Positions 6,169-29,216 of a DNA stretch of 29,846 nucleotides are shown here, piece after piece. The translations under genes and the position numbers were made by a program. The notes beneath the pieces were generated by a model. That model saw nothing but the letters and a program-made list of their open reading frames with translations. It was not told the origin of the DNA and made no database searches. This DNA comes from a virus. The stretch is from positions 1-29,846 of IMG/VR virus record IMGVR_UViG_3300037502_001990. The stretch is one strand, 5' to 3'. Every line of letters starts with the position of its first letter. Position 1 is the stretch's first letter.

Positions 6169-6472
6169 GCGTTCCTCCCAGCATGTCGGCCAGCACGTCA
6201 GCCCCGGCCTCGTCGTCGTGCGCGTGCGTGCAGTCCTCGCACCACTCGCCAGGGTGCGCCATGAACCGGCGCGCGATGGTCTGATGCGTGAAGGCGCACA
6301 CAGCGCCGTGCGTGTCGCACAGCAGGGACCAGCGCCCGGCGTCGGTGTCCATGTCGGCCGCCTTGCCGTCCAGCAGGACGATGGCGGCCCCCGTGGTCTT
6401 TGCAACCCGGTGCGTCCGGTATCCGGTGTACCCCTGCGGGCCGGGCGTGTAGGTGATGGCGGGGACGCTCAC
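6161..6472 (-). CDS. hypothetical cysteine/histidine-containing protein
   Basis: A 103-aa protein. It opens with PAITYTPGPQGYTGYRTHRV and has a metal-binding style segment, WSLLCDTHGAVCAFTHQTIA...PGEWCEDC, giving C-x7-C plus C-x2-C and several histidines. A short acidic tail follows (HDDEAGADVLADMLGG). The start is a GTG at 6472, in a GTGA overlap with the upstream gene, after AGGTGGGCGC. The pattern of a Cys/His pair, an arginine helix and a WCxxC pair is one I have seen in unnamed proteins of actinobacterial phages and plasmids; no function is known to me. Confidence 0.7.
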   Translation of the reverse strand: MSVPAITYTPGPQGYTGYRTHRVAKTTGAAIVLLDGKAADMDTDAGRWSLLCDTHGAVCAFTHQTIARRFMAHPGEWCEDCTHAHDDEAGADVLADMLGGTHE

Positions 6473-6759
6473 GCGCCCACCTGACCAGGTGCCTCAACAG
6501 AGTCCACCGGCACCCAGCCGCGTCCGTGATTGTGGTATGGGCGTCCGTAGTTGTCGTGTTCAGTAACACGACCCTCAATGACGACCACCGCACCGCGCAC
6601 GCGGTACACCGGATCAGCGATGACGCCGCGCACGCGGTCGCTGTTGGCCAGTCTTTCAGCCGTCTTGCGCGCGGCGCTTATGCTGCTGCGGTACACCGGC
6701 TGTGTCTTTATTCCCCCGCCTATGTACCTGATGCTGATGCGGTAGCGGTCTGCGTTCAT
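6469..6759 (-). CDS. hypothetical protein behind its own promoter
   Basis: A 96-aa protein. The start RYRISIRYIGGGIKTQPVYR leads to a helix (ISAARKTAERLANS), strands (GVIADPVYRVRGAVVVIEGRVTEH) and a Tyr/His/Gly-rich end. No family is recognised. The ATG at 6759 follows AAGGGGGCAAGGAC. An in-frame ATG 11 codons earlier (6792) sits at the predicted transcription start of a promoter at 6799-6827, so a longer leaderless form is possible. It is the first gene after an 88-nt gap and probably heads a separate early transcript. Confidence 0.65.
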   Translation of the reverse strand: MNADRYRISIRYIGGGIKTQPVYRSSISAARKTAERLANSDRVRGVIADPVYRVRGAVVVIEGRVTEHDNYGRPYHNHGRGWVPVDSVEAPGQVGA

Positions 6760-6798
6760 GTCCTTGCCCCCTTCGTTCGGCGTTATTGCCATGCCGTG

Positions 6799-6827
6799 AA
6801 TGTACGCCCGCCCCCCGCTGGTGTCTA
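6799..6827 (-). promoter_or_regulatory. sigma-70-type promoter for the gene starting at 6759
   Basis: On the minus strand, TAGACA (6827-6822), 17 nt, TACATT (6804-6799). The seventh base after the -10 box is the A of an ATG at 6792. The upstream TAGCCCTAGAC matches the promoter at 27131-27141. A GTGTC/GACAC inverted repeat overlaps the -35 region and could be an operator. Confidence 0.55.
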
Positions 6828-6847
6828 GGGCTACGGACACCACGGGC

Positions 6848-7597
6848 CTACGACTTGCCCGCATTTTGCGGGTTTTCTGTGCCGAACGCTGCCGTAATCG
6901 CGGCCTTCGCGCGGTCGAACGTCGCCGCGTCCGTGAGGGCTGCGCGGTCTGCGATGCCTTCGGCCTTCAGCGCGGCGGCTACGTCGGCCATCGTCACGTC
7001 ACCACCGGCCGCCAGGTGCAGCGCCTTCAGTTCGGCGGTGCCCGGCGCGATCACCGGGTCAGCGGCGGGCAGGTCGGTGCTACTGCGCGGCTGCTTTGCG
7101 GCTTTGCGGCGCTGCGGCTTTGCGGCCTCGGTGTCGCTGCGGTCGGCCTTTGACCACAGGCCACCGGCTACCCCGAACCTCATCGCGCCATTGCGCAGGG
7201 CGTCCCCGATCAACTCTTTTACGGCGTCGCGCTTGCCCGACTCGCACGACCCGTAGGCCGGGCGCTCAACGCCGCACACCTGAATCCAAATCCACATCCC
7301 CACCGGCCGCCCGTGTTCGTCGCGGTCCAGCACCGGCAGCCCGTTGTCATCGGTGGCCATCGGCGTCCACGTCCAGCACGGGTCTGCCTCAATCAGCGCG
7401 CGCGTGGTGTCGGCGTGCCCCAGGTAGGACAGCGCCGGACCACCGCCCCGGCCTGGCAGCGTGCCGATCAGTTCGGCGGGCGGCTGCCACCAGTCGCGGG
7501 CCAGCGCCGTCAGCGCCGCCACCTGGTAGTCCCAATCCGGCTGGGCGGGCGGCACGGGCGGCATGGATGCCCCCGGCGTTGCGTTCTCGTCCTCCAC
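6848..7597 (-). CDS. putative single-strand annealing recombinase (ERF/Rad52-like)
   Basis: A 249-aa protein. The core (about residues 35-140) carries ALSYLGHADTTRALIEADPCW, then GMWIWIQVCGVERPAYG, then DAVKELIGDALRNGAMRFGVAGGLW. The last segment, with a DALRNGAMRFGVA helix, is the hallmark of phage annealing proteins of the ERF/Rad52-like type. The C-terminal third is low-complexity and then helical. The GTG at 7597 shares a base with the upstream stop (TAGTG) and follows GGGGAGGAAGTA. Such proteins pair complementary single strands and fit with SSB and the resolvase. Assignment by motif only. Confidence 0.6.
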   Translation of the reverse strand: MEDENATPGASMPPVPPAQPDWDYQVAALTALARDWWQPPAELIGTLPGRGGGPALSYLGHADTTRALIEADPCWTWTPMATDDNGLPVLDRDEHGRPVGMWIWIQVCGVERPAYGSCESGKRDAVKELIGDALRNGAMRFGVAGGLWSKADRSDTEAAKPQRRKAAKQPRSSTDLPAADPVIAPGTAELKALHLAAGGDVTMADVAAALKAEGIADRAALTDAATFDRAKAAITAAFGTENPQNAGKS

Positions 7598-7950
7598 TAC
7601 TTCCTCCCCATGTTGTCCAGCGCCGTAAGCCCGGCGCGGGTGATGATGCACACGCGCTGCGATTCCCCCGCGCGGCTTGTGCGTGTCTCGTCGGTGGCGC
7701 GGATGAACCCACCGGCCAACAGTTCTCCGCACCGTTTCCAGTAGCAGCAGCCGGGGGCCTCGGCCAGGCCGGTGACCACCCCCGCGCCGTCGTTCGTCAG
7801 CCCGTAGTCCCCGGCGTCGGCATACGCCGCCAGCAGGCGGGCACGCTGCGACCCGGCACGGATGACCACCGCGCGGGCGGCCTTGTGCGACGTGGCCGGG
7901 TCGGTGGTACGCACCGGCAGCGGAAGGTCGTCGAATGTCATGGCGATCAT
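7597..7950 (-). CDS. winged-helix-like phage protein
   Basis: A 117-aa protein with a common phage pattern: TDPATSHKAAR, then GSQRARLLAAYADAGDYGLTNDGAG, then CCYWKRCGELLAGGFIRATDETR, then SQRVCIITRAGL. The helix-helix-wing order and the closing ITxAG strand suggest a winged helix-turn-helix that binds DNA. The family is widespread in phages but unnamed as far as I know. The ATG lies in an ATGA overlap with the gene upstream; an ATG three codons later is possible. Confidence 0.7.
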   Translation of the reverse strand: MIAMTFDDLPLPVRTTDPATSHKAARAVVIRAGSQRARLLAAYADAGDYGLTNDGAGVVTGLAEAPGCCYWKRCGELLAGGFIRATDETRTSRAGESQRVCIITRAGLTALDNMGRK

Positions 7951-8162
7951 GCCGCCCCCCTCTTGCCGATGATTTGCGCCACCCGCTGATGCGACAGGCC
8001 GACGTGGGCGCTAATCGCCCGCAGGGACATGCCCGTGTCACGCGCCGCCGTCATGGTGTCGCGCAGCAGCCCGGCCGATAGGCGCTCGCGCGCCACCGCG
8101 TCCCGATGCGCCTCGGCTGCGGCGTGCAGCCATTCGGCGCGGTCGTCGTTCACAGTTGTCAC
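7947..8162 (-). CDS. small helix-turn-helix protein
   Basis: A 71-aa protein. The second half, MSLRAISAHVGLSHQRVAQIIGKRG, is a clear helix-turn-helix of the sigma-region-4 style; the first half is a charged helix. It starts with a GTG in a GTGA overlap and ends in an ATGA overlap, so it is coupled on both sides. It could be a small transcription regulator of early genes. The short length and basic end favour DNA binding without an effector domain. Confidence 0.75.
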   Translation of the reverse strand: MTTVNDDRAEWLHAAAEAHRDAVARERLSAGLLRDTMTAARDTGMSLRAISAHVGLSHQRVAQIIGKRGAA

Positions 8163-9118: not shown

Positions 9119-9336
9119 GCTGCTGCCCTCCATGTCGTCGGCGGTATTGCCGTGTCATGGACCCTAGACGACTGGCGGGGCACCTCGCTAGGGGTGCGGC
9201 GGCGGCATTGTCGCTATTTGCGGGCTTTTCTAGTTTTTCCCGCTATTTGCGACTTTTCGGCTGCGACAGGGGTAGCGGTGTCGTGGGCGGGCGTCTAGTG
9301 TTCTCGACATAAGGCAAGACCAACCGAAGGGAACAC
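9119..9336. other. divergent 218-nt control region
   Basis: The gap separates the leftward early block from plus-strand cassette A. It holds two copies of CGCTATTTGCG flanking a T-rich centre (9210-9253). Near 9294 there is a TAGTGT that could be a weak -10 for cassette A. No good -35/-10 pair is seen for the minus strand. It is the best candidate for the main early control region. Confidence 0.5.
9210..9253. repeat. dyad built from two CGCTATTTGCG elements
   Basis: GTCGCTATTTGCGGGC (9210-9225) and CCCGCTATTTGCGAC (9239-9253) lie 13 nt apart. The outer GTCGC/GCGAC and inner GCGGG/CCCGC arms are inverted, while TATTT is in the same orientation in both. The first copy recurs at 25719 and 27091. 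It could be a repressor operator or a replication element. Confidence 0.6.
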
Positions 9337-9540
9337 ATGATGGACAGCAAGCCCGACATCGCCGCGCACATAGCCACCACGGTGGCCGACCGCGCGCCGC
9401 AGCGTTACCGCCTGGCCGTGTACGCGGCGGCATACAAGATGGCCGCGCTCCACTTTGAGGGCACGGCCTACACCTACCACCTGGCGCTCGGTGAGGCATA
9501 CAAGGCGGGGGAGGATGCCATGCGCGACGTGACCGCGTAA
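9337..9540 (+). CDS. plus-strand cassette A protein
   Basis: A 67-aa, mostly helical protein (DIAAHIATTVADRAPQRYRLAVYAAAYKMAALHF, then YHLALGEAYKAGEDAMRDV). No family is recognised. It starts at ATGATG after CGAAGGGAACAC, the same ribosome site found in the other two plus-strand genes, and is followed by the same GGCCCGCC/GGCGGGCC hairpin. It is one of only three genes against the direction of the genome. It is probably an accessory (moron-like) gene, perhaps expressed separately from the lytic operons. Confidence 0.75.
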   Translation: MMDSKPDIAAHIATTVADRAPQRYRLAVYAAAYKMAALHFEGTAYTYHLALGEAYKAGEDAMRDVTA

Positions 9541-21832: not shown

Positions 21833-23509
21833 CTAGGTCAGTTCCTTACGCATCCTTGCGAGCCGGGCACGCCACCTGGCGGCCGCCTCGCGCTTTGCCT
21901 TGTCATCCGAACCCAGGCGCGCGGCCTGCGGCATACCGCCCACCGGCTGACCCGGTGCGGCGTCGGTGGCCCCCGCCGAAGGCAGGCGGCCGGTGGTAAT
22001 CGCATCCTCTAGGATAGCCGCGCGTGCGGCTAGCGTCGTCTGCCCGTACGCCGGACTGCCGACGGCGGAAACCTCGTACAGCATTTCCACGCGCTCTACC
22101 GAACGCATGGGCACGCCGCCGCTGTAGTCCCACCGCTCGCCCTTGCCATCGGCGGGCATGGTGAACGCGAAGGACATTTGCGACATGGCCCCGCTTCGCA
22201 ACTTCGCGTCCAGGCGTTGCGCGTCCGGGTCATCCAGCGCGATGCGCGCCCACACGCGCAGGCCGGTGTCATCCTCCACCAGTTCCAGCGACCCGTTAGA
22301 CGTGCGCGCCATCACGGTGTCCATGTCATGCCCCAGCACGAACCGGATGTCCTCGCCCGATGCCAGGGCGTCAGCGAACGCGCCGCGCTTGATGACCTCG
22401 CGGAACCCGCCCAAATCCTCGGACACGGCATCCCACACGGCGGCGTAACCCACCACGGTGCGGTAGTCAGGCCCGGCCCCGGACTCGCGCCATTCCACCC
22501 GGCCGGGCGACAGCGCGCGCTCCACGCGGGGCGCCGACGCCTGCTGGTCGGTAGGTGCCACCTCGTCGCCGGGCGGGGCGACGGCCGACGGCGGCGCGTC
22601 CTCGGTGTCGTCCTCGTCGTCCATCACCGGCATGTCATCGGCCGGGGCGTCGTGGTCGGGGACAATCCAAAACCGGCACAGCCCCTCGGGGTCCACCTGC
22701 TGCCCCACAATCTGGCACCCGCCGCCGCCGCGATAGAACGCGCAGCGCGCGCAGGCCAGGCCGTCATCCGCCCAGGGGTTGTCGGCCGGTCCCATGTAGT
22801 GCGCGCCGTTCGCGCCCACGCCCGCGTCCCACGGGCCAAAGGTTTCCGCGATGCCGTGCAACTTGTCGGCCAGCGCCCGCTGCCGGGCGGTCATCCATTC
22901 CGCGCCCTCGCCATTGCGGGTAGCCATGTCGTCGGTGTCCTTCCCGGCCGCGTTGTCGGCCTGTTGCCTATCGTCCTCGGCGCGGTCCAGTTCGCGCACC
23001 TTGCGGGCGGCCCACGTTGCGCCGGGGCTGCCGTCCTTACTGTCCACGCCCCACAGCAGCGCGGCGACGTAGCCCGGCGATTCCTCACCGGCCACGGTGT
23101 CCTCGGCCGTCCAGTCATTGCGGTGACGCGCCCACCACGCGGGCATCCGGCGTACCTTGTCATCCGACAGCGGCTCGCGGTTGGCCATGCGCCGGGCGTC
23201 GCGGATGGTCTGCTGTACCAGCCCGTCACCGCCCTTGCCTTCCTCGTACAGCCGCAGGCCCTTGCGCGCGGCGCGAGCGATGGCCTCCGTGGGCGTCAGG
23301 TCCACGTCACCGGGTGCCCGCACCTCGTCGGCGTAGGCGCGGGCCGCGTCATCGGCGGGGAGGTCACCGATAGCCACGGCCTGCGCCAGCGCCTTAGCGA
23401 CAGCGGCCGCGCGGCCCGCATCGTCGCCGGGTTGGTAGGTGTAGCAATATCCCGCATCGCCCCACTTCACGCCAGGACGCCCATTAGACTGGCAATCATT
23501 CAGCGGCAT
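21833..23509 (-). CDS. multi-domain head maturation protease
   Basis: A 558-aa protein, more than twice the size of a usual HK97 prohead protease. The C-terminal domain (about 335-500) is the S78/U35-type protease: TVVGYAAVWD, FREVIKRGAFADAL, FVLGHD (H394), MSFAFTM (S446) and YEVSAVGSPAYG. Upstream are a CQSNGRPG-KWGD-YCYTY start, a helical domain (about 70-170) and a four-cysteine cluster (C253, C256, C265, C278: CARC, GGCQIV, GLCRFW), which may bind zinc or an iron-sulfur centre. It should cleave the capsid delta domain. The start at 23509 overlaps the portal by 14 nt. Confidence 0.88.
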   Translation of the reverse strand: MPLNDCQSNGRPGVKWGDAGYCYTYQPGDDAGRAAAVAKALAQAVAIGDLPADDAARAYADEVRAPGDVDLTPTEAIARAARKGLRLYEEGKGGDGLVQQTIRDARRMANREPLSDDKVRRMPAWWARHRNDWTAEDTVAGEESPGYVAALLWGVDSKDGSPGATWAARKVRELDRAEDDRQQADNAAGKDTDDMATRNGEGAEWMTARQRALADKLHGIAETFGPWDAGVGANGAHYMGPADNPWADDGLACARCAFYRGGGGCQIVGQQVDPEGLCRFWIVPDHDAPADDMPVMDDEDDTEDAPPSAVAPPGDEVAPTDQQASAPRVERALSPGRVEWRESGAGPDYRTVVGYAAVWDAVSEDLGGFREVIKRGAFADALASGEDIRFVLGHDMDTVMARTSNGSLELVEDDTGLRVWARIALDDPDAQRLDAKLRSGAMSQMSFAFTMPADGKGERWDYSGGVPMRSVERVEMLYEVSAVGSPAYGQTTLAARAAILEDAITTGRLPSAGATDAAPGQPVGGMPQAARLGSDDKAKREAAARWRARLARMRKELT

Positions 23510-24701
23510 CAGCACCGCCCGGCTGGAGGTTCGGCGCACCGCCCACGGGCGTCACCTGCACGGTGTCGCCGTCCTCAATCGGCGGCAGGCTAAACACGCG
23601 CCGCGCGTCGTTGATGGACAGCCACCCCGCCTGCCGACCGGCCAGCACCGCTTGTGTCTTAGTCGGCGTGTCGGCGCGCAGTAGGTCGGTGGTATCGAAC
23701 TCAGGGCGCAGCGGCGTGCCGCCGCCGAACAGTTGCGGCAGCCCGTGGGCAATCGCCATTTCGATGCGGCGCAGTCGCGGCGTGAGGCTGAACGTGAGGA
23801 ACCGCAGCGATTCCTGTTCCGCCGTGGTGCCGGTCGGGTCGCCCACGCCCAGCATGTGCGGGGGCAGCCGCCAGATGCGCGCCACGTCCTCCACGCTCAT
23901 GCGCGCCTGTTGCACGAAGGCGGCATCCTCCAGGTTCACCGGCACGCGCTCCAGGTCGGCACCACCGGCCAGCACCGCAGGCTTGTGCGAGTTCATTACG
24001 CCACCGTGTGATGCGTTCCACACCCGCAGGATTTCCTGCGCCTGCTGCTGGGTGACGTTGCCGGGCACCTTGATGACCATGCCGGGCGCGGCGTCGTTCA
24101 GCCAGTACGCCGACTGGAAACGCTGAAGGGCCAGCCCGTTGCCCAGCGCGTTGCGATGCACGCCGATGGGCGACAGGCCCATGACGTGCCCCGGTGGTGT
24201 ATAGCCGGGAATGTGCAGGATGTCATCGGTGGTCAGGTCGCGGATGCCGTCAGGCCCGCCCACGTCGAACCGCTTGCGCTTGTCCTTCGGGTCGCGCCGC
24301 ACCATAACCGTGCTGGGGTCCATCGGCACCAGTTCCACGATGCGGCCGCCGCGCCGGATAATCTGGCAGTAGGCGTTTCCCCACATTTCCACGGACCCGG
24401 CCACCTGCACCATCCACCCGAACGGGTCCAGGTCGGCCGTGGGCGATTCCATCAGCAGCGCCCACGCGGGCGTCCCGGTTGCCTTTGTCTCACCGTCACG
24501 GACGTATAGCGGCAGGCTGCCGATGGTTTCCGCCACCAGGCGGATGGCCGCCGACACAGCGGGGAGGGCTTGCGCCGCCTCATGCGTGACGTTCACGCCG
24601 GAATAGGTCACGGCCCCCTGCGTCGGCCACGGGATAGCCGACGTGCCGAACTCACCCGCGCGGATTTCCACGCCCGCGCCCTTCGCGCCCCGGACGATCA
24701 C
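23496..24701 (-). CDS. portal protein
   Basis: A 401-aa HK97-type portal. It has the family's run of landmarks: VSAAIRLVAETIGSLPLYV, LMESPTADLDPFGWM, GNAYCQIIRRGGRIVELVPMDPSTV, DILHIPGYTPPGHVMGLSPIG, VEDVARIWRLPPHMLGVGDPTGTTAEQES and LRRIEMAIAHGLP. Twelve copies form the DNA entry channel and dock the terminase. The GTG at 24701 lies in a GTGA overlap with the gene upstream. It is followed directly by protease and capsid, as usual. Confidence 0.96.
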   Translation of the reverse strand: MIVRGAKGAGVEIRAGEFGTSAIPWPTQGAVTYSGVNVTHEAAQALPAVSAAIRLVAETIGSLPLYVRDGETKATGTPAWALLMESPTADLDPFGWMVQVAGSVEMWGNAYCQIIRRGGRIVELVPMDPSTVMVRRDPKDKRKRFDVGGPDGIRDLTTDDILHIPGYTPPGHVMGLSPIGVHRNALGNGLALQRFQSAYWLNDAAPGMVIKVPGNVTQQQAQEILRVWNASHGGVMNSHKPAVLAGGADLERVPVNLEDAAFVQQARMSVEDVARIWRLPPHMLGVGDPTGTTAEQESLRFLTFSLTPRLRRIEMAIAHGLPQLFGGGTPLRPEFDTTDLLRADTPTKTQAVLAGRQAGWLSINDARRVFSLPPIEDGDTVQVTPVGGAPNLQPGGADAAE

Positions 24702-24922
24702 CCGTCCACCACCTGGATGAACGCGACGCCCTCCACGGGAATAAGGGCGTAGCCCTCCAGGTCATGCGAGCGCTCGGCCGATTCGATCAGCGACGCCGCC
24801 TCCAGCCGGTAGTGCTTGCCGCCCACGCGCCCCATGAATACGCCTTCCAGGGACGGGGCATCGCCGCGCATGTGGATGCGGGCAAGGCGTTGCCGTCGCC
24901 ACGGCCACCAGCGCCACATCAC
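24698..24922 (-). CDS. small protein upstream of portal
   Basis: A 74-aa protein with a Trp/Arg-rich start (MWRWWPWRRQRLARI), then MRGDAPSLEGVFMGRVGGKHYRLEAASLIES and strands to the C-terminus. Small proteins with the SLEGVLxGRxxGHYxL-type pattern are frequent next to portal genes of actinobacterial phages; their role is not known to me. It starts with a GTG in a GTGA overlap with the glycosyltransferase-like gene. Confidence 0.7.
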   Translation of the reverse strand: MMWRWWPWRRQRLARIHMRGDAPSLEGVFMGRVGGKHYRLEAASLIESAERSHDLEGYALIPVEGVAFIQVVDG

Positions 24923-25698
24923 CGCGCCGCCTTCACGATGCTACGTCCGTCCTCGTCCGTGGTGGTCAGCCGTTCGATTCCTAGCGCCTCGCGCCGCTTG
25001 TAATACTCCCGCGCCGCCTCCCGTCGGTACAGGTCGCGCCACGCTGAACGATGCTCCACCGTGACATCGTGGAACATTACACCATCCTGCGGCGCTACAT
25101 GGGGCGGCCCCCATAGGTAGGTATACGTTCCGTCCTCCTGCACACCGGCATAGACGTAGTGCAGGCCCACGACCTGCATGCGGTCCAGGCACCGGAATAG
25201 CATCCGCATGGGCGCGGTGGTGGATGGCGGCAGGTTCATGGCGCGGGCTACGTCCGGCGCATCGGTGAGGTAATCCGACCGCGACCACAGCCCGACCTCC
25301 ACCACGTCGCCCGGCACGTCGGCCAGGCGCTCGCGCAGGTCGCCGGGGTACTCGGCCAGCACGCAATCCGCATCGAATACCCAAAGCCAATCGTGGTGCG
25401 CGCGCGCGTGGGCGTTGGCCAGCCGGAACATGAAATCGCGCTTTGCCACCTCGTCCCCCAGGAACGGCGCGGCCGGGCGGTGAATGGTGACCGACAGCCC
25501 CAGCGCGTTGGCCGTTGCCATCACGGTTTCCGCCTGCACGCGCTCCGATGATGCGCGGGCGTCGGGGTAGTGCGCGTACGCACCATCCACCGCGATAAGC
25601 CCATCCAGCGCGGGCGCGAATGATGCGACCGCCTCCGCTAGCCATGAAGGGGATTCGTCATACCACGACAGCAGCCCCCAAACCTTCGGCGTTTCCAT
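24919..25698 (-). CDS. glycosyltransferase-like protein (GT-A type)
   Basis: A 259-aa protein. It opens KVWGLLSWYDESPSWLAEAVASFAPALDGLIAVDGAY, the typical first strand and helix of a family-2-like glycosyltransferase. A conserved DWLWVFDADC gives a DxD metal site. A VGLHYVYAGVQEDG segment and a basic C-terminal helix follow. It could glycosylate capsid or tail proteins, or the host surface. The ATG follows GGAAGGAACGC. It is the first minus gene left of cassette B and is directly upstream of the portal-associated genes. Confidence 0.7.
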   Translation of the reverse strand: METPKVWGLLSWYDESPSWLAEAVASFAPALDGLIAVDGAYAHYPDARASSERVQAETVMATANALGLSVTIHRPAAPFLGDEVAKRDFMFRLANAHARAHHDWLWVFDADCVLAEYPGDLRERLADVPGDVVEVGLWSRSDYLTDAPDVARAMNLPPSTTAPMRMLFRCLDRMQVVGLHYVYAGVQEDGTYTYLWGPPHVAPQDGVMFHDVTVEHRSAWRDLYRREAAREYYKRREALGIERLTTTDEDGRSIVKAAR

Positions 25699-25709
25699 GC
25701 GTTCCTTCC

Positions 25710-25736
25710 CTAAAAAATGTCGCTATTTGCGGGCAT
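25710..25736 (-). pseudogene. eight-codon remnant of the 107-aa gene start
   Basis: Reading ATGCCCGCAAATAGCGACAT and then TTTTTAG gives MPANSDIF and a stop. The first seven codons match the start of the gene at 26785-27108. It is probably a leftover of duplication when the cassette flank was copied. A regulatory site that only happens to be translated in the other copy is the alternative. Confidence 0.45.
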
Positions 25737-25739
25737 TGT
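25714..25739. repeat. 26-nt repeat next to cassette B
   Basis: Identical to 27086-27111, with the core GTCGCTATTTGCGGGC at 25719-25734. It also shares the core with 9210-9225. It lies upstream of the cassette promoter and of the divergent minus-strand gene. Confidence 0.8.
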
Positions 25740-25762
25740 GCTGCCCGTTGCGTCTAGAACAC

Positions 25763-25791
25763 TTGACAGCATGACAGCGCGGGCGCATAAT
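25763..25791 (+). promoter_or_regulatory. strong sigma-70-type promoter of cassette B
   Basis: TTGACA (25763-25768), 17 nt, CATAAT (25786-25791). This is a near-consensus promoter. The seventh base after the -10 is the A of ATG 25798. It is the best promoter in the window and may work without phage factors. Confidence 0.8.
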
Positions 25792-25824
25792 CACACCATG
25801 AACACCGACCCGAAGGGAACCGAC

Positions 25825-26058
25825 GTGAACACCACCACATTCCAGCCCGGCGAGACTTACGCGGTCCGAAGCAACTGCGATTGGGACACGGTTTTCCGCT
25901 ACACGGTCATCAGCCGCACGGCGCGTTTCATCACGATTGACACCGGCTGGGAGACTAAGCGGGTGGGCGTGAAGGTCAGCGACGGCGTGGAGTACGCGCT
26001 GCCCGAAGGTTCCTACAGCATGGCCCCGGTGATTCGCGCAAGTCACCCGCAGGCGTAA
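25825..26058 (+). CDS. plus-strand cassette B protein
   Basis: A 77-aa protein: TFQPGETYAVRSNCDWDTVFRYTVISRTARFITIDTGWETKRVGVKVSDGVEYALPEGSYSMAPVIRAS, a small beta-rich fold. I recognise this pattern (FRYTVxxRTAKFVT, then GxYSMAPxIxA) from unnamed proteins in phages and plasmids; function unknown. The GTG at 25825 has GAAGGGAA 5 nt upstream. An in-frame ATG at 25798 lies on the predicted transcription start, so a form nine residues longer is possible. It is controlled by its own promoter and hairpin. Confidence 0.8.
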   Translation: MNTTTFQPGETYAVRSNCDWDTVFRYTVISRTARFITIDTGWETKRVGVKVSDGVEYALPEGSYSMAPVIRASHPQA

Positions 26059-26084
26059 CCCATCGCGCCACGCGCACCGCGAAC

Positions 26085-26104
26085 GGCCCGCCAGTCGGCG
26101 GGCC
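26085..26104 (+). terminator. terminator of cassette B
   Basis: GGCCCGCC (26085-26092), AGTC loop, GGCGGGCC (26097-26104), then TTCGTGTTTCT. An 8-bp GC stem with a moderately T-rich tail, a reasonable intrinsic terminator for plus-strand transcription. Confidence 0.75.
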
Positions 26105-26119
26105 TTCGTGTTTCTAGGG

Positions 26120-26788
26120 CTAGTCACGGATGACTTGCGGCGGTCGCTCGCCCACTAACAGGCGCTTGCGCGGGTCGCGGTCCAGTTCCAGCCAGCGTTC
26201 TTTTAGGTGTTCGCATCCGCCGTCGCGGGCGGCGACCATCGGAACGCCCGCATCCCGTAGCCGGTGCGACAGGTGGAAATCCGACGCCCACGACGACGAC
26301 GGCCCGCCGAACGCGCCGAACGGGAACCGCCGCCACAGGTCGCGCGGCATGCAAGTGAGGGCGAACCCCACGAAGCCGGTTTCGATGACCGGCGACGGGT
26401 GCGCCACCACGTCGCTGAACTTGCGGAAACGGTACGCACCGGGCGTCGGCTCGTCGCCCATCAGCGGCCCGTCCGTGATGTTTACCAGCGGGTGCGTGCT
26501 GTCCAGGCGGCACCACCCGGTAACGACCGGCCGCCCCTCGCGGGCCAGTTCCAGCACGGCATCCAGCGCGGGCTGCCTTACCACCACGTCATCCGCGACC
26601 ATGACCAGGTGCGTGAACGGCAGGTCAGGGTCATCTACCAGCGACCGCACCACGTCCATCAGTTGCCATTCGGTGTATCCCTGCATCCACGCCCGGCGCA
26701 CGTCCAGCGCGCGGAACGCGGCCACGGCGTCGGGGATTTCTCGCGGGTGCATGATGCACAGCAGCGGGTCAAACTCGTCCCCGGTCAC
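26120..26788 (-). CDS. second glycosyltransferase-like protein
   Basis: A 222-aa protein. It starts FDPLLCIMHPREIPDAVAAFRALDV, then PFTHLVMVADDVVV, a DDV motif in the place of the GT-A DxD. RPVVTGWCRLDSTHPLVNITDGPL and ETGFVGFALTCMPRDLWRRFPF are acceptor-side segments, and there is a C-terminal ASDFHLSHRLRDAGVPMVAARDGGCEHL. It is probably a glycosyltransferase, possibly working with the gene across cassette B. The GTG at 26788 lies in a GTGA overlap with the upstream gene; the longer open frame upstream is low-complexity and is not used. Confidence 0.65.
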   Translation of the reverse strand: MTGDEFDPLLCIMHPREIPDAVAAFRALDVRRAWMQGYTEWQLMDVVRSLVDDPDLPFTHLVMVADDVVVRQPALDAVLELAREGRPVVTGWCRLDSTHPLVNITDGPLMGDEPTPGAYRFRKFSDVVAHPSPVIETGFVGFALTCMPRDLWRRFPFGAFGGPSSSWASDFHLSHRLRDAGVPMVAARDGGCEHLKERWLELDRDPRKRLLVGERPPQVIRD

Positions 26789-27108
26789 GGTGCCCGCCCC
26801 GCCTCGGTGATCGCTGCCCATAGCGCGCCGCGCCTTTCCTCGGTTTCGTCGAATAGGTATTCCCGCGCCAGGTCCATGACGTTCTCCAGCGCCCGCAGGC
26901 GGGCCAGGGTCACGGTGCCGGGCGGTCCCGCCGCGTCGTCCCCGTGCGCCTCCAGCCGGGCGCGCAGTTCCAGCGTGACGGCCTCGGCCTCGGACCACTT
27001 CGCCACCATGTCGCGGTACATGGCCAGCGGCACGGTACTGGCATGCGGCACCGCCGATGGCGGCGTGTACGGCGGCACCCACGCCAAAATGTCGCTATTT
27101 GCGGGCAT
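26785..27108 (-). CDS. hypothetical protein with coiled-coil middle
   Basis: A 107-aa protein. MPANSDILAWVPPYTPPSAVPHA gives a flexible start, then a helix (LAMYRDMVAKWSEAEAVTLELRARLEAHG) and a second helix (LARLRALENVMDLAREYLFDETEERRGALWAAI). No family is recognised. The start follows AAAGGGAGACA and its first codons lie inside the 26-nt repeat. It is coupled to the glycosyltransferase-like gene downstream by GTGA. Confidence 0.65.
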   Translation of the reverse strand: MPANSDILAWVPPYTPPSAVPHASTVPLAMYRDMVAKWSEAEAVTLELRARLEAHGDDAAGPPGTVTLARLRALENVMDLAREYLFDETEERRGALWAAITEAGRAP

Positions 27109-27111
27109 TGT
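27086..27111. repeat. 26-nt repeat next to cassette C
   Basis: Identical to 25714-25739, with the core at 27091-27106. It overlaps the first eight codons of the minus-strand 107-aa gene. Confidence 0.8.
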
Positions 27112-27136
27112 CTCCCTTTGCGTTTGTCCATAGCCC

Positions 27137-27166
27137 TAGACGGTGCGCGGTCCTGCGGGGCATAAT
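27137..27166 (+). promoter_or_regulatory. promoter of cassette C
   Basis: TAGACG (27137-27142), 18 nt, CATAAT (27161-27166). The -10 is the same as in cassette B and the -35 is weaker. The seventh base after the -10 is the A of ATG 27173. The TAGCCCTAGAC just upstream is shared with the minus-strand promoter at 6799-6827. Confidence 0.65.
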
Positions 27167-27199
27167 CCACCTATGCACACCGACCCGAAGGGAACCGAC

Positions 27200-27658
27200 G
27201 TGAACACCACCACCGCATCCACCCCGCGCGTGTCCTACTGGGCGAAGCCCAACCGCTACGCGGCCGCCTGCTGCTACTGCGGCGATCAGGTCATCGCTGA
27301 CGGTGGCCTGTCGTGGAAGGATGGCGACCGCTGGGCTACGGCGCACGATGACTGCGCCATGCAGCACGCGCGCAGCATCCCCTACATCCGCCGCGACTAC
27401 ACGCGCGGCGCATACGGCGTCGGTGACCGCAGGGTGACCAGCGCCTACCCGGTCCACCTGCTGCGGCTGGACACCCGCGAGGACTGCGCCGCGCACCTGT
27501 GTTCCACATGCCGCGCGGTCGTCGGCCTCGTAAAGAATAAGCGCGGGCGCTGGTACCTGGCCGAAACAGTCGTCGCGGCCACCGCGCCCGGCAGCGACGC
27601 TATCCACACCGACCGGACGCGCTGCGAGCCGTGGCGACCACACACCTGCCGCCACTAG
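27200..27658 (+). CDS. plus-strand cassette C zinc-ribbon protein
   Basis: A 152-aa protein. It has CCYCGDQVIADGG...RWATAHDDCA, a Cys/His knuckle set, then an Arg/Tyr-rich middle and a second knuckle LCSTCRAVVG. The C-terminus is Cys/His/Arg-rich (RCEPWRPHTCRH). No family is recognised. The GTG at 27200 has GAAGGGAA 5 nt upstream. An in-frame ATG at 27173 lies on the predicted transcription start. The first five codons and leader match cassette B although the rest is unrelated. It is the longest plus-strand gene, next to TerL. Confidence 0.8.
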   Translation: MNTTTASTPRVSYWAKPNRYAAACCYCGDQVIADGGLSWKDGDRWATAHDDCAMQHARSIPYIRRDYTRGAYGVGDRRVTSAYPVHLLRLDTREDCAAHLCSTCRAVVGLVKNKRGRWYLAETVVAATAPGSDAIHTDRTRCEPWRPHTCRH

Positions 27659-27684
27659 ACCACGCGCAACGCTGCACCGCGAAC

Positions 27685-27704
27685 GGCCCGCCACATGGCG
27701 GGCC
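27685..27704 (+). terminator. terminator of cassette C
   Basis: GGCCCGCC (27685-27692), ACAT loop, GGCGGGCC (27697-27704), then TTCGTGTTTGT. Almost identical to the terminator of cassette B, including the preceding GCACCGCGAAC. Confidence 0.75.
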
Positions 27705-27719
27705 TTCGTGTTTGTGGGG

Positions 27720-29216
27720 CTAGTCATCGTCCAGCCCATCCCACGTTAGGACGTATTCAGCGGGCTGCTCGTCGCGGTCAGCGCGCCACAGGGCCATACA
27801 CATGGCAACGCAGGCATCAATACGCTGAAGCCGCTGGCGGCCGATGCGCCATCCGCGCTCGGTCATGGTCGCTTGCGTTGCCTCCACATGCGCCGACAAC
27901 ACCGGGTCCACCGGATGCACCACGCGCCCATCCTGCACGGCCGTGTAGAACGTCGCGTAAGCCTCGGCCATGCGACGCGATGCCTGGTCCACGGGCGCGG
28001 TGATGAACCCGGCCGCCGACAGCGCCGACGCCGACCGCTCAAAGAACCGGGGGTCGTACACCAACTCGCGCACGCTGTAGCGGTCGGCCAGCGATTCGAT
28101 GTAGTCCTCCACCACGCCCAGGTCCACGCGGCCGCCCGGCAGGATGATGTGGGCCACGGCGTCATCCCGCGCAGCCCACACGCGGCAATCCAGCGCGATG
28201 CGGCCATCGGGCAGGCGGCAACCGATGGCCACGGCGGTGCTGTCATGCACTAGCCCCACGTCCACCGCCACGACCACCTCGGACCCGTCGGGGATGGTGT
28301 AGCCCTCGGTGCCCAGCGCCTCCCACGCGCCAGCGGGCAGCCATGCATTACGGGTGCTGGTCCATTGGTTCGCATGCAGGCGGCGGAAGGCGTACTCGTC
28401 CACCGTGGGCGATTCGCGCTGGGCCTCCAGCACGGCCGACGTAATCCACGACGCCGGGTTAGCGGCCAGCACGTTTTCCGGCGTAGGCTCGTCGTCGTCG
28501 GCCAGCCCGTACCACCACATGAGGAACCCGGCCGCAGGGTCGCGGGCTATGGTCAGCATCCCGTCCCGGCGCACGTCCGGCAGGCGCATGGCATCCGCGT
28601 ACAGGCGGCCCAGAATGGTGTGGCGGTTATACCCCGCCGTGGTAATGGCCAGGTTCATGGGCTGCTCGCGCGCGCCGCTGGCCGTGTTCAGCGCCGCGTA
28701 CAGTTCCTCCTGCCGGGGCGTTTCCAGCGCGTGCAACTCGTCAAGGATGACGGCGCTGGGGCTGGTCCCGTGCTGCATCCGTCCGTCAGCCGCCACGCGC
28801 TTGATGGTGCTGCCGGTCGGCCCATAGATCACGAACCGCTGCGCGTCGAAGTGCTGGCCCAGATCCTCGGACGCCTCCACGAACGCGCGGGCCTGATCGA
28901 ACACAATGCCCGCCTGATCGCGCGAACCTGCGGCGATGATGACTTCCGCCCCGGCCTCACCGTCGGCCCCGGCATGGTAGAGGGCGAGCGTTGCGGCAAT
29001 GGTGGACTTGCCGTTTTTTCTCGGCAGCCCTAACAGGACATTGCGATAGACGCGGCGGCCGTCGTCGTCCAGCCTATATGCCTCGTCAATAAACGCCTGC
29101 TGCCACGGCTCAAAGGCCACCGGCTGACCGGCCCACCGGCCTTTGGTGTGGCGGCAGTATTCGCGGGCGAACGCGGCCAGGTGGCCGCCCTGCGTTGCCG
29201 GGCTACTCGTCGGCAT
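27720..29216 (-). CDS. terL: terminase large subunit
   Basis: A 498-aa packaging motor. The ATPase half has GLPRKNGKS (Walker A, 63-71) and VILDELHAL (Walker B with catalytic E160), followed by an ITTAG coupling motif (191-195). The nuclease half has D319 (VAVDVG), D388 (VYDPRFF) and D467 (RIDACVAM), the three metal-binding acids. It is of the Phage_terminase/YmfN-like HK97 type. The ATG at 29216 overlaps the 35-aa zinc-ribbon gene by 14 nt. It drives DNA into the prohead and cuts the concatemer. Confidence 0.96.
   Translation of the reverse strand: MPTSSPATQGGHLAAFAREYCRHTKGRWAGQPVAFEPWQQAFIDEAYRLDDDGRRVYRNVLLGLPRKNGKSTIAATLALYHAGADGEAGAEVIIAAGSRDQAGIVFDQARAFVEASEDLGQHFDAQRFVIYGPTGSTIKRVAADGRMQHGTSPSAVILDELHALETPRQEELYAALNTASGAREQPMNLAITTAGYNRHTILGRLYADAMRLPDVRRDGMLTIARDPAAGFLMWWYGLADDDEPTPENVLAANPASWITSAVLEAQRESPTVDEYAFRRLHANQWTSTRNAWLPAGAWEALGTEGYTIPDGSEVVVAVDVGLVHDSTAVAIGCRLPDGRIALDCRVWAARDDAVAHIILPGGRVDLGVVEDYIESLADRYSVRELVYDPRFFERSASALSAAGFITAPVDQASRRMAEAYATFYTAVQDGRVVHPVDPVLSAHVEATQATMTERGWRIGRQRLQRIDACVAMCMALWRADRDEQPAEYVLTWDGLDDD

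Follow-up and report, generated by a model that had tools for sequence, protein, structure and literature searches.

The lambda cI mRNA made from PRM is leaderless, with an AUG at its first base and a single gene to serve. It was named as a leaderless control by Beck, Fleming and Janssen (2016, PMC4965119), whose subject was a group of E. coli mRNAs (ptrB, rcnR, iscR and others) in which an AUG stands at the 5' end of a message led by a Shine-Dalgarno (SD) sequence, the 5'-uAUG mRNAs. About a dozen E. coli genes were tested for the usefulness of such an AUG, with mixed outcomes; in ptrB, where a 26-nt leader follows it, the proposed role of the 5'-AUG was to bring ribosomes to the SD start, and its mutation lowered expression by 93% (PMC4965119). 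Leaderless starts are common in actinobacteria, and in mycobacteria a 5' RTG is both necessary and sufficient (PMC4633059). The mycobacterial leaderless genes and "isoform" starts have that RTG at the RNA 5' end (Shell 2015, PMC4633059; Smith 2022, PMC9094748), and in-frame starts a little upstream or downstream of the annotated one have also been reported, those within 10 codons being partly put down to misannotation (PMC4633059, PMC9094748). CA repeats after the start aid leaderless initiation, and conditions affect leaderless and SD initiation differently (PMC9031893). Finally, the Cluster K mycobacteriophages have a start-associated sequence (SAS), the 13-bp motif GGGATAGGAGCCC, just ahead of their starts (PMC3203893).

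The window analyzed here, the whole of a 29,846-base IMG/VR virus record with 68% G+C, and its relatives contain small gene cassettes that share features with each of these systems. As in the E. coli 5'-uAUG mRNAs, a (predicted) 5' AUG is paired with an SD-led gene start, but each E. coli upstream frame closes at a stop of its own, in some cases within the gene and out of its frame, whereas the phage AUG shares the frame of the gene in 15 of the 16 cassettes and a separate upstream frame with its own stop (13 codons) is present only in the one designated L083. The phage layout also recurs over many cassettes and its RNA start is predicted, unlike the mapped 5' ends of the E. coli messages, whose class is defined by an AUG at or within 2 nt of that end which binds 70S ribosomes and changes gene expression. 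The likeness to lambda cI is that of a phage mRNA with a first-base AUG, cI having no SD-led second start in frame. Actinobacterial leaderless genes, which have an ATG or GTG at +1 behind a TANNNT-type -10 box, are matched in sequence geometry (again with a predicted RNA start), but they have neither an SD nor a 5' UTR, and the phage cassettes instead keep an SD-led inner start. The mycobacterial cases concern individual host genes, for which the cited papers describe no pairing with a shared SD block, in contrast to the phage pair, whose SD start is fixed and which moves as a module. The Cluster K SAS is likewise a repeated phage sequence beside the starts of unrelated genes that is tied to translation initiation (PMC3203893), but it has no 5'-terminal AUG and no promoter geometry; GGGATAGGAGCCC was absent from the cassette start regions inspected, which have blocks of the GAAGGGAA type instead.

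The Source Phage and Its Relatives

The minus strand of the window encodes a single-strand annealing protein (6848-8041), head protease (21833-23539), portal protein (23496-24701), glycosyltransferase (24919-25698) and large terminase subunit (TerL, 27720-29216). A near-identity DNA search with the window found no match among annotated phages. Its terminase is at best ~33-34% identical to those of Streptomyces phages of the phiC31 type or group. A copy in a metagenome-assembled genome of the Actinomycetota (L061) is closer, at 64% identity, and no +1-ATG cassette was found at that locus. Judged by sequence, an actinobacterial host is likely. The relatives are metagenome contigs, some of them incomplete, and the proteins encoded by the cassettes (the cargo) had no significant family match in PHROGs or Pfam.

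Cassettes of the Window

The transcription starts (+1) of all cassettes are predictions, placed 6 or 7 nt after the -10 box. The earlier note, made from the DNA of the window, had put an ATG at the seventh base after a CATAAT box in two plus-strand cassettes, B and C, in frame with an SD-led GTG 27 nt later, and both the coordinates and the frame proved exact. In cassette B, the promoter TTGACA-17 nt-CATAAT (25763..25791, with CATAAT at 25786-25791) matches the consensus at 11 of 12 positions and is separated by CACACC from the ATG at 25798. The 27-nt leader (25798..25824) is open as MNTDPKGTD and contains the SD-like GAAGGGAA (25812..25819); behind it, the GTG at 25825 begins a gene of 77 codons without known family (25825..26058), followed by a terminator stem, GGCCCGCC/GGCGGGCC (26085..26104). 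Cassette C has the promoter TAGACG-18 nt-CATAAT (27137..27166, with CATAAT at 27161-27166), CCACCT ahead of the ATG at 27173, and a leader of the same length (27173..27199) that reads MHTDPKGTD and holds an identical GAAGGGAA (27187..27194). Its GTG at 27200 opens a cysteine-rich gene of 152 codons (27200..27658), with a terminator stem at 27685..27704. Homologues of the cassette C protein, which has zinc-ribbon-like CxxC pairs, occur in L041 (16053-16511, 77%) and, more distantly, in L044 (8347-7979, 33%). CATAAT-N6-ATG occurs exactly twice in the window, at B and C, and the two cassettes are 89% alike over a 57-nt block and 91% alike in their terminators; as such copies, they count as one case within the window, not two independent ones.

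An equivalent layout that had been pointed out on the minus strand was also found as described, behind the promoter TAGACA-17 nt-TACATT (6799..6827). Here CACGGC follows TACATT, the ATG at 6792 opens a 33-nt leader (6760..6792, MAITPNEGGKD), and a second ATG at 6759, with GAAGGGGG ahead of it, starts a gene of 96 codons (6469..6759). The slot of this site holds other cargo in L039, L082, L083 and L084. Cassette A (9296..9540, plus strand) served as a leadered comparator: it reads TAGTGT-N7-ATA, has the SD GAAGGGAAC and starts at 9337/9340, and has no +1 ATG.

Recurrence across the Family

The layout was formalized as a scan for TANNNT or [CG]ATAAT, 6 or 7 nt, an ATG, and an SD-led start 18-63 nt on with an open frame of at least 50 codons. 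The window gave three matches, and 200 shuffles of it gave a mean of 0.15, none reaching three. Across the family (126 kb) there were 13 non-redundant matches, all 13 in frame, versus a mean of 0.65 and a maximum of 3 in first-order Markov shuffles. When the spacer between the -10 box and the ATG was varied from 0 to 20 nt, nine matches fell at 6 nt, four at 7 nt, and zero to two at each other length. In 80 kb of more distant relatives (four loci) the identical scan returned no match, and in a 509-kb control of thirty-odd loci from other phages or genomes it returned 13, spread over the three frames as 6/2/5. The pairing of a +1 ATG with an SD-led start is not a product of chance. Pattern scans for the block outside the family gave chance matches alone, in unrelated and mostly low-GC contigs (L047-L057), and the ACCGACCCGAAGGGAAC matches in L030, L033 and L034 were likewise taken as chance, there being no matching promoter or leader.

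With L082, L083 and L084 added to the 13 found by scan, the non-redundant cassettes with a +1 ATG number 16. Their spacers are solely 6 or 7 nt, their leaders are 27, 33 or 48 nt, and the leaders fall into four unrelated types. The first (27 nt, MNTDPKGTD) is present in window B, L003/L004, L006/L045, L040 and, twice, L041, with MHTDPKGTD in window C and a diverged form, MNTDHKGNE, in L046. The second (48 nt, MNTAPATxTxTSxEGI) is MNTAPATHTHTSPEGI in L040 and MNTAPATYTTTSQEGI in L037; the third (33 nt) is MPSTTYLKGHT in L008; and the fourth (33 nt, MAITPN...) is shared by window 6792, L039, L082 and L084. The 27-nt leader is a single block reused in seven cassettes, and since a few blocks have been copied repeatedly, the independent leaders are few (4 to 9). 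Three spellings of the -10 box are used: a 6-nt spacer goes with CATAAT/GATAAT and with TACATT, and a 7-nt spacer with TAGTGT/TAGACT. The cassette C gene itself has CATAAT as its box in the window and TAGTGT in L041, and in each case the ATG falls at the expected start. An SD-like block and an inner start at a workable spacing are present in all 16 cassettes despite the swaps of leader and cargo, and nothing but the ATG, the frame and the SD is common to all the in-frame members. The four leader types are otherwise little alike, and the idea that the ATG belongs to a longer conserved DNA or RNA motif at +1 was therefore rejected. The leaders are mostly A+C-rich, and the leader plus 30 nt is more weakly folded than nearly all genome windows of the same length.

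Like morons, the cassettes are small genes with their own promoter and terminator that lie among structural genes and vary between relatives; B and C are on the strand opposite to their neighbors, and the cargo varies within one slot among L003, L006, L008, L040 and L046. We favor the view that they are small moron-like genes that share a portable start block.

Window 25700-27720 and the relatives L003, L006, L008, L037, L040 and L046 have two fixed slots, one by the glycosyltransferase genes and one by the terminase. In both, the small cargo differs between phages and the promoter and terminator ends are conserved. Promoter, leader and cargo appear to have been swapped separately, and one of the boundaries is the predicted +1 base (L041 599 versus L084 3079).

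The Frame Rule

A comparison set was provided by 14 sister cassettes of the family and its distant relatives, in which a like promoter and an SD-led start occur without a +1 ATG (e.g., window 9296, L039 9499, L003 3057 and L046 6324, and several in L042-L044 and L084); the SD-like GAAGGGAA occurs among these sisters too. Their +1 position is an A in 13 of 14 and a G in the other, in a genome with 15% A, which supports that position as the true RNA start and makes it, on sequence grounds, a credible one. The existence of many sisters without a +1 AUG also means that the AUG is not essential. Promoters of this kind can be followed from +1 by ACA, ATA or ACG, and the frame is then random. The distance from +1 to the start is random modulo 3 in the sisters (3/6/5), three of the 14 being in frame, versus 15 of the 16 cassettes with a +1 ATG. 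A Fisher test on all cassettes, which are not independent, gave p = 9e-5; with the cassettes collapsed to lineages, a division that was our own judgement, it gave p = 0.003 (8/9 versus 3/14), and the strictest collapse gave p = 0.011 (4/4 versus 3/14).

The single exception, L083, shares its promoter and ATG with window 6792 but has the inner start 32 nt after the ATG; its +1 frame reads MAITPNEGVWQWN, 13 codons with a stop just inside the gene, so that a longer form of this protein is impossible. The earlier note had named frame-breaking changes in the leaders of relatives as a refutation of its proposal, and L083 is a relative with such a leader that retains its +1 ATG; the other 15 of the 16 cassettes have an unbroken frame, and the frame rule is therefore strong without being absolute.

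The Start of the Gene

Homologous cargo proteins indicated which of the two codons is the gene start. The L003 cargo is 60% identical to a homologue in L043 whose ATG aligns to the inner GTG, and the L044 homologue of the cassette C gene also begins near the inner GTG; both of these homologues are leadered, with no 5'-AUG. Between L008 and L037 the cargo proteins show 83% identity, beginning at about the inner start, although their leaders, MPSTTYLKGHT and MNTAPATYTTTSQEGI, are unrelated. Codon conservation in the leaders, a comparison that had been suggested at the outset, gave no sign of constraint: by our count, related leaders differ at about ten codons (few data), with the residue altered at about nine and one change silent. 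A conserved leader peptide was rejected on these grounds and because homologous cargo has unrelated leaders. The homology from the SD-led codon, the differing leaders and the unconserved peptide together mark the inner start as the real gene start; read from these alignments, the SD-led codon is the ancestral start and the leader an added, exchangeable part. In annotation, such genes could be given either of two starts, which differ by 9 to 16 residues.

Proposed Mechanism and Alternatives

That a leaderless-type start and an SD start could occupy one mRNA had been proposed from the window, and their coexistence is now probable, given a +1 ATG that survives swaps of promoter and leader and whose frame is kept in 15 of the 16 cassettes, against 3 of 14 sisters that lack the ATG. 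As to its function, on balance we lean towards a reading in which the 5'-AUG would be a ribosome-entry site with its frame kept so that entering ribosomes still make protein. This ribosome-entry reading builds on the observed geometry, its recurrence, the frame bias, the exchange of leaders and cargo and the homology from the inner start, and would further have transcription begin at the predicted base, both starts used, the AUG in a recruiting role and the host actinobacterial. The portable block would consist of the A of the AUG at the transcription start, a short and weakly folded leader, the SD and the real start codon, and would offer ribosomes two routes, the leaderless one at the 5'-terminal AUG and the canonical one at the SD. 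Most product would come from, or be equivalent to, the SD-start protein, and the 5'-AUG would mainly serve to load more ribosomes, the role proposed for it in E. coli ptrB. Were the frame not kept, a ribosome that started at the 5'-AUG in an actinobacterial host would run through the real start in a useless overlapping frame, which would explain why it is kept; the 9 to 16 residues added at the N terminus would be tolerated, not selected. The ptrB precedent and the CA-repeat effect, together with the A+C-rich and weakly folded leaders, favor entry at the 5'-AUG. A rather unlikely variant is that each cargo gene has two independent entry routes, 5'-AUG and SD, with selection holding the frame; if true, the cargo would be made whatever the state of initiation in the host, e.g., with the SD route impaired during infection.

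Lambda-type holins are dual-start proteins with long and short forms that differ in role, and the 15 of 16 cassettes that have both starts in one frame would suit such a pair here. Two protein forms had indeed been suggested from the window, and purposeful products of this kind, a long one from the 5'-AUG and a short one from the SD with different roles or with a ratio that follows the ribosome state, would gain from the different responses of leaderless and SD initiation to conditions (PMC9031893). As the purpose of the layout, though, they fit poorly with a leader peptide that is not conserved (about nine in ten codon changes alter a residue), with homologous cargo that has unrelated extensions (L008, L037) or none (L043, L044), and with L083, from which no long form could be made; we consider them improbable. 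It is most doubtful of all that these are plain leaderless genes, with the +1 ATG as true start and the inner SD and GTG or ATG as a relic of a leadered ancestor. The +1 ATG is exact in all cases, leaderless starts are common in actinobacteria (PMC4633059) and an annotator would pick the longer frame, but a relic would hardly have been retained in 16 of 16 cassettes through swaps of leader and cargo, and homology runs from the inner codon, where the distant homologues begin. The ATG could alternatively have hitch-hiked, untranslated, within a copied promoter and early-transcript block, with the frame agreement a matter of chance over few blocks. B and C are near copies, seven cassettes have a single 27-nt leader block and L083 retains its ATG out of frame, all as this would predict; nevertheless, differing promoters and leaders share little besides the +1 ATG, the same kind of promoter tolerates ACA, ATA and ACG from +1 with random frame, and the frame bias outlasts the collapse to lineages (p = 0.003 to 0.011), which leaves hitch-hiking an unlikely account. 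The family itself is a natural comparison set: the AUG is present behind some promoters and absent behind similar ones, one cargo can stand behind different leaders, and one member has a broken frame. Such a set could separate recruitment from two-product ideas directly.

Elements beside the Cassettes

The element CGCTATTTGCG (in reverse, CGCAAATAGCG) recurs by the cassettes, at window 9213-9252, 25722-25733 and 27094-27105, L003 3114 and L041 669, and is possibly an operator. At 27094-27108 it supplies the opening codons of a minus-strand gene (26785-27108, MPANSDI...), and at 25714-25739 its DNA lies ahead of the glycosyltransferase gene as a short open frame. A GTCTAG/CTAGAC-type sequence, a possible regulator site, is in or near most cassette promoters (window 9294-9299, 25753-25758, 27135-27140 and 6824-6829, and in relatives too), at a varying distance from the -10 box. 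In L040 (12150-12180), a second cargo gene follows the slot B gene with its own GAAGGGAAC block, and it has an in-frame ATG 21 nt upstream, directly after a terminator-like GC-rich repeat.
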